This document shows positions 2,251 to 2,714 of a stretch of DNA of 64,000 nt, piece by piece. Origin of the DNA: Desulfitobacterium dichloroeliminans LMG P-21439 (GTDB taxonomy: Bacteria; Bacillota; Desulfitobacteriia; Desulfitobacteriales; Desulfitobacteriaceae); contig NC_019903.1 of assembly GCF_000243135.2 (NCBI RefSeq), positions 100,001-164,000 on the forward strand. Direction: 5' to 3'. A model generated the notes under the pieces. The model did not search any database and was not told the DNA's origin. It was given only the letters and a program-made list of their open reading frames with translations. The first letter of the stretch is position 1, and each line of letters opens with the position of its first letter. A program made the translations under genes and the position numbers.

Positions 2251-2357
2251 TTTCACTAAAGTGAAAACGAAGATGACGAAGTGCATGATGTTTTGGGGTC
2301 AGTTCCACCCGTTTGGCCGGCGCCACGTAGCTGGATTATGTGGCCGTGTGGCTTGGC

Positions 2358-2557
2358 CGAAATGATCCACTGGATCATTTCGTATCCCGAACACGGAAGT
2401 TAAGACCTCCAGGGCTGATACGAAACCATCCAGTGAATGGTTTCGCGGCGTGCGGGCTGTGGGAAGAAAATACTGAACCCGCCGCCTTACTTGGACCGCA
2501 GACGTAACAGTCCGGTAGACTGTTACGCGGCACGATAGTCTCCAGTGGAGAGTATCG
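2358..2557 (+). repeat. Four 25-nt covarying hairpin repeats (9-7-9)
   Basis: Units at 2358-2382, 2421-2445, 2503-2527 and 2533-2557 each have a 9-nt arm starting CG, a 7-nt loop and a 9-nt arm ending CG. The left arms are CGAAATGAT, CGAAACCAT, CGTAACAGT and CGATAGTCT. Each right arm is the exact complement, except for one G-G mismatch in the last. The loops are CCACTGG, CCAGTGA, CCGGTAG and CCAGTGG. Arm sequence changes while pairing and loop are kept, which points to selection on structure. A fifth, weaker hairpin of the same 8-7-8 geometry but with a different loop lies at 2322-2344. Confidence 0.75.
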
Positions 2558-2634
2558 CCGAAGCCGCATTCTATTAAGAATTGCTAACCGGCTGAGGATT
2601 CGCGCTGTGGGAAAATGATACTGAACGCGCCGCC
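2452..2634 (+). repeat. Two copies of a ctgtggga...tactgaa hairpin repeat
   Basis: The 21-nt cores at 2457-2477 and 2605-2625 both begin ctgtggga and end tactgaa, differing at only a few central positions. Each core is closed by a GC stem of different sequence: GCGGG/CCCGC in the first, CGCG/CGCG in the second. Both are followed by ccgcc, which can extend the stem with upstream GGC. Each copy forms the 3' end of an insert in the broken 5S gene. Confidence 0.65.
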
Positions 2635-2714
2635 TACCTGGGAAAGTAATATCCACACTGCAGGAGTATGCGTCACGGGACGCAGTATGGCGACGATCAT
2701 AACTTCTCCTACTC

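Follow-up and report, generated by a model that had tools for sequence, protein, structure and literature searches.

The window analyzed here, a stretch of 64,000 nucleotides (bases 100001-164000 of the single 3,624,449-base contig of the Desulfitobacterium dichloroeliminans genome), contains the tail of an rRNA operon in which an intact 5S rRNA gene is followed by a terminator-like hairpin and then by a second, split 5S copy at 2302-2649, whose four blocks are collinear with the intact gene at 2098-2214. The features, in window coordinates, are as follows.

2098-2214, + strand: intact 5S rRNA gene of the operon to which the split copy belongs (Rfam RF00001, 93.1 bits)
2220-2246, + strand: terminator-like hairpin between the intact 5S gene and the split copy (terminator scan)
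2302-2314, + strand: 5S block 1, 13/13 exact against the intact 5S
2315-2383, + strand: insert 1 (69 nt), an E1 element at 5S loop C (match of model R1 at 2313-2383, E 8e-17; included in the R1 seed)
2384-2419, + strand: 5S block 2, 35/36 against the intact 5S, with 32 nt exact at 2388-2419
2420-2487, - strand: insert 2 (68 nt), an E2 element reversed relative to the 5S (alignment of E2 copies)
2488-2501, + strand: 5S block 3, 14/14 exact against the intact 5S
2502-2636, - strand: insert 3 (135 nt), a second E2 broken by a nested E1 (E2 pieces at 2502-2531 and 2601-2636)
2532-2601, - strand: the E1 nested within insert 3 (model R1, E 5.1e-13; included in the R1 seed)
2637-2649, + strand: 5S block 4, 13/13 exact against the intact 5S
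2650-2693, + strand: truncated E3 element (95% identity over 44 nt)

The exact matches of the blocks form a chain of 72 nt, compared with 4.3 nt on average and at most 33 nt when 2256-2700 was dinucleotide-shuffled 2000 times, and the earlier note, which had recognized four near-perfect, ordered 5S blocks, is borne out on this point. Its description of 2-3 nt of 5S lost at each junction also holds, the missing bases being CC (2132-2133, 2 nt) at the first, GA (2170-2171, 2 nt) at the second, and GGT (2186-2188, 3 nt) at the third junction. The split copy is without about 21 nt of the 5' end of 5S (2098-2118) and its last 13 nt (2202-2214), and it scores below the Rfam cut-off for 5S. The feature is longer than first noted, because block 4 is followed by the truncated fourth element at 2650-2693. 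The terminator scan yielded 2 sites in 900 nt against a shuffle mean of 1.1 and is weak evidence alone; by reading of the loci, hairpins related to that at 2220-2246 precede other split copies too. A search of the + strand from 2000 to 2858 revealed no sigma-70-like promoter. Because the terminator-like hairpin comes after the working 5S gene, the split copy is probably little transcribed. Elsewhere in the window, the 23S gene is interrupted at about 107-245 by an insert of some 150 nt, which lies between GAACGGAATTATTAAG and TTTAATAATTCCGTTCC, is present in four of the six operons and absent in two, and is free of the hairpin typical of the E elements.

The inserts belong to three related families of non-coding, double-hairpin mini-elements of about 64-70 nt, designated E1, E2, and E3. 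Each element consists of a family-specific body and a 3' palindromic hairpin, CGAAA-N3-loop-N3-TTTCG, followed by T, and thus ends in CGT. A 25-nt pattern of this hairpin, allowing up to 2 mismatches, occurs at 24 places in the genome, a few of which may be chance, against 1 for the reversed control pattern, and a 22-nt form (up to 1 mismatch) occurs at 17 places against 0 for the control. The stems covary: 94.2% of the positions are paired in 33 distinct hairpins (25-mers), whereas in 2000 shuffles of the 3' arms the paired share averaged 79.7% and never exceeded 84.8%. In the 16S and 23S genes of the six operons the hairpin pattern is absent, its sole location within the operons being the rrnF 5S. 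The 16S genes of two operons (L199, 1812-1818 kb, and L201, 2241-2248 kb) are 69 nt longer than those of the three other measured operons. Rfam, at gathering scores, matches no family besides 5S in the 5S region, and a search of 2200-2800 returned nothing beyond two matches at chance level (E 4.6 and 4.9); elsewhere in the window only 5S, tRNA, 23S, and riboswitch-type families were found. Self-splicing introns and other curated RNA families were accordingly rejected as the identity of the inserts, at which Rfam gives no match.

The junction of an element with 5S is exact on the side of the CGT hairpin, while 2-3 nt of 5S are replaced on the opposite side; in the orientation of the element, the replaced bases fall, by eye, in TCC, ACC, ATC, GTC, and ACC. 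Inspection of the 5S sites by eye revealed no flanking direct repeat that would represent a target-site duplication, the 2-3 nt being lost instead. Among 63 E1 copies examined by eye, which are the best-scoring loci and not a random sample, no conserved GTAG was seen, the CGT end is present in nearly all, and a C after it in only part, as regards a GTAG/CGTC tag. Five 5S sites are used overall, and for every one of them there are intact or other split copies in which it is unoccupied. Targeting of loops within 5S was considered and is unsupported, because four of the five sites touch an unpaired position, which is no significant bias when the expectation from all positions is 74%; loop targeting is visible in the nested copies.

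The D. dichloroeliminans genome contains eight split copies at five operon tails and one expanded 5S. The split copies carrying an insert at loop C are located at 102303, 202346, 233193, 233511, 233829, 234146, 1818336, and 2589369 (the last on the minus strand), those from 233193 to 234146 forming a tandem array of four, and all eight have an intact 5S gene beside them, of which there are five in all. The 233 kb copies hold E1 and E2, and those at 1818 kb and 2589 kb hold E1, E2, and E3. The 202 kb copy contains E1, E2, one E3 at an additional site (GTTAAG/ACC/TCCAGG), and another E3 interrupted by E1; the two junctions of its E2 sit at two different 5S sites, the pattern expected if two E2 copies had recombined. 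Peculiar to the window copy are its nested E1 and the presence of E2 in two separate copies, while its loop C E1 and its second E2 site are common to other split copies of the genome and would therefore have arrived here by duplication. Shorter remnants, consisting of block 4 and E3, lie at 2589118 and 2241399. The sixth operon (about 2241 kb) is without a normal 5S match and has only the expanded 5S, which ends at 2241816 on the minus strand and contains its E2 and E3 inserts within 2241575-2241728; an expanded 5S has been published for D. dichloroeliminans LMG P-21439 at 2241573-2241816 (complement) of NC_019903.1 (PMC7812874). Five further loci of the genome analysis (L052, L060, L062, L064, and L067) are longer structured repeats with ends like CCCAAGGATTTTG/CAAAATCCTTGGG that contain E1 and the 22-nt hairpin, and the latter is missing at the matching place of L058.

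The spread of the elements was followed with R1, a covariance model of E1 whose seed consists of 18 D. dichloroeliminans copies, which match by construction, and independent support for the model is given by its matches in other genomes. At E<1e-8, R1 detects 20 E1 matches in D. dichloroeliminans, and 10 of these lie outside the rRNA operon tails. At E<=1e-4, E1 is present in 40 of 45 family genomes, D. dichloroeliminans included, and in 2 of 37 other genomes of the class, both of one genus; high copy counts within a genome are lower bounds in this screen and in that for E3. G038 alone has 99 matches, and in 18 loci inspected there the E1 copies are near-identical, mostly arranged as head-to-head pairs within a longer repeat, and surrounded by unrelated outer flanks, which means that the longer carrier repeat has spread recently; movement of E1 on its own is not implied by this. 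The hairpin ends of the E1-pair repeat in G038 (L253-L273) resemble ends of the IS200/IS605 type, and the genome has many near-identical copies of this repeat. E3 was found by BLAST in 28 of the 45 genomes, with identity of up to 92% between genera, while E2 is limited to four (D. dichloroeliminans, G002, and two with weak, hairpin-only matches); an E2-like remnant was recognized by eye in G001.

Comparison of the 5S loci of relatives revealed comparable split copies with insert combinations of their own. In G002, a member of the same genus, two split copies carry E1 at the loop C site, and one of them has E2 at the first E2 site of the window with an E1 nested inside that E2, at a point different from that of the nested E1 in the window. 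In genus g4, presumably Desulfosporosinus, E3 is found at the sites in loops A, B, and C and often has E1 in its hairpin loop. More generally in the relatives, E1 is located within the hairpin loops of E3 as well as other elements, and E1 nested in E3 is seen inside split 5S copies of other genera. Among 51 distinct E3 copies, again best-scoring loci and not a random sample, 32 end exactly at a 5S site (13 at loop A, 10 at loop C, and 9 at loop B); among the remaining 19, roughly 10 are flanked on the left, by eye, by 5S sequence, and the rest are in tandem or degenerate contexts. The E3 cores of different genomes are 85.2% alike when they occupy the same 5S site (65 pairs) and 85.2% alike at different sites (145 pairs), a comparison over 40 nt with low resolution.

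Why the 5S blocks look unmutated was addressed by comparing them with the intact 5S of their hosts in the five genomes where both kinds of copy are readable (G000, G002, G017, G035, and G007); an automated classifier found no intact 5S in 8 of 14 genomes and scored the expanded 5S at 2241 kb as intact. With exceptions, the blocks match the host's own intact 5S, and the variants of the host 5S recur in the split copies of four of the five genomes (all except G007). In G017, 64 of 64 positions are identical to the host 5S in two loci, while divergence at the 3' end is seen in two others. In G035 there are 2 differences in 64. The short split block seen in G007 differs from the intact 5S of its host, as does one base of a split copy in G001. 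The host-specific variants favor gene conversion by the intact gene; this, or the insertion of elements into copies that had just been duplicated, would account for most of the fresh-looking blocks. The earlier note had attributed it either to recent insertion or to maintenance by gene conversion or function; gene conversion is thus the favored part of that proposal, while arrangements of this class are not recent, because related genera use the same 5S positions.

Taken together, the split copy is likely a relic 5S gene holding copies of mobile hairpin mini-elements, which has been multiplied and kept fresh by spreading and gene conversion. On this reading, a relic 5S gene lying last in an rRNA operon, after a terminator-like hairpin, would have repeatedly received E1, E2, and E3 elements that moved within these genomes, either through a trans-acting enzyme or through a step mediated by RNA or hairpin DNA. 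The split copies would have multiplied through duplication and homologous recombination between operon tails, and their blocks would be kept free of mutations by gene conversion with the intact 5S as donor. Repeated precise insertion rather than random decay, as the earlier note had put it, agrees with the interspersed families, with the 5S sites found both occupied and empty, and with the elements lying within elements. The equal likeness of E3 cores at the same and at different 5S sites also speaks for this reading, and the lack of a target-site duplication at the 5S sites and of a Y1 transposase match in the genome speaks against it.

The movement of the elements as such is the step that we infer from such comparisons, and they might instead be unable to transpose, having originated within 5S copies and propagated solely through recombination and gene conversion. 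That E2 is almost confined to 5S copies of this genus, that 32 of the 51 E3 copies in the non-random set end exactly at one of three 5S sites, and that no transposase is tied to the elements would all agree with such an origin. However, the 10 E1 copies away from rRNA tails in D. dichloroeliminans and the nesting of E1 at different points of other elements make homology alone insufficient, and we regard this alternative as unlikely.

It is also conceivable that the split copies are working genes, which encode expanded 5S rRNAs or a 5S-derived non-coding RNA and whose hairpins serve as expansion segments or excised intervening sequences. In the window copy, however, both 5S ends are absent and a terminator-like hairpin, but no sigma-70-like promoter, was found ahead of it; the insert content varies between copies, and an intact 5S adjoins all eight. 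The little-mutated blocks, the covarying first hairpins of the inserts, the conservation of E3 between genera, and the operon at 2241 kb, where the expanded 5S is the sole 5S match, agree with such a function. Stepanov and Fox, in the text of PMC7812874, leave the function of the expanded 5S open and judge copies of the split kind likely untranscribed. Function as working genes seems improbable to us for the split copies. Although rRNA repeats are generally hard to assemble, an assembly or sequencing artefact between rRNA copies, which the earlier note had named as a way to refute its reading, is very unlikely because eight individually differing split copies at five tails and an expanded 5S at the coordinates published for the strain are present in a one-contig genome, and comparable copies with combinations of their own exist in the relatives.

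If the split copy is a relic that received mobile elements, the question arises of how hairpin elements of 65 nt spread in a genome without a recognizable Y1 transposase. The Y1 domain (PF01797) has 0 matches in the D. dichloroeliminans genome and is found in 38 of the 45 family genomes. Four of the five family genomes without E1 possess it, and G017, with at least 28 E1 matches, does not. Mobilization by a RAYT/IS200 system was rejected, since PF01797 is absent here and in G017, yet present in four of the five E1-free genomes. As a tentative and rather doubtful extension, the Desulfitobacteriaceae may hold undescribed mini-mobile double hairpins with a common CGAAA...TTTCGT end that prefer hairpin loops of structured sequences, E3 having settled in 5S and others having nested inside E3, with insertion at the level of RNA or extruded hairpins and without a dedicated transposase. 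In the multi-copy 5S genes, empty and filled sites come built in, and rules of insertion can be derived from them.

Short palindromes of similar behavior are known in other systems. The palindromic GC clusters of yeast mitochondria, as described in PMC4478555, are likewise short and non-coding, mobile by inference, and prone to merging and shuffling together, while they are mitochondrial and produce target-site duplications (AG, ACT), in contrast to the bacterial E elements, which replace 2-3 nt instead. REP/REPIN sequences and GTAG/CGTC-tagged repeats, as treated in PMC3733652, are also short, dispersed bacterial palindromes with complementary stem changes, some of them paired, but REP/REPINs use RAYT transposases, whereas D. 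dichloroeliminans has no Y1 match, and the E elements differ from them in the two-hairpin unit of about 64-70 nt and in the nesting in hairpin loops; the terms Desulf-, Clostridi-, and Firmicutes are absent from the main text of that paper. Closest of all is the report of Stepanov and Fox (2021), which in the text of PMC7812874 describes, behind normal 5S genes of species including D. dichloroeliminans, insertion-bearing 5S remnants that are likely untranscribed pseudogenes, and notes that some of the inserts are almost the same as expansion segments found in the genome that carries them. The window copy resembles these pseudogenes in its 5S-like core with large insertions, in the missing 5S termini, in its location where the operon ends, downstream of a normal 5S and of a putative terminator (for which the scan alone is weak), and in inserts common to the expanded 5S of the genome. 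The class of object, an insertion-bearing 5S pseudogene, is therefore already known for this species. The main text of PMC7812874 ties no inserts to dispersed repeats, the terms transpos-, palindrom-, and repeat being absent there, and no account of E1, E2, or E3 was found in the literature covered, mostly main texts of papers readable without subscription. The identity, spread, and nesting of the inserts thus appear new, and the published 5S pseudogenes and an expanded 5S gain, in the interspersed families of hairpin elements, a source for their inserts.
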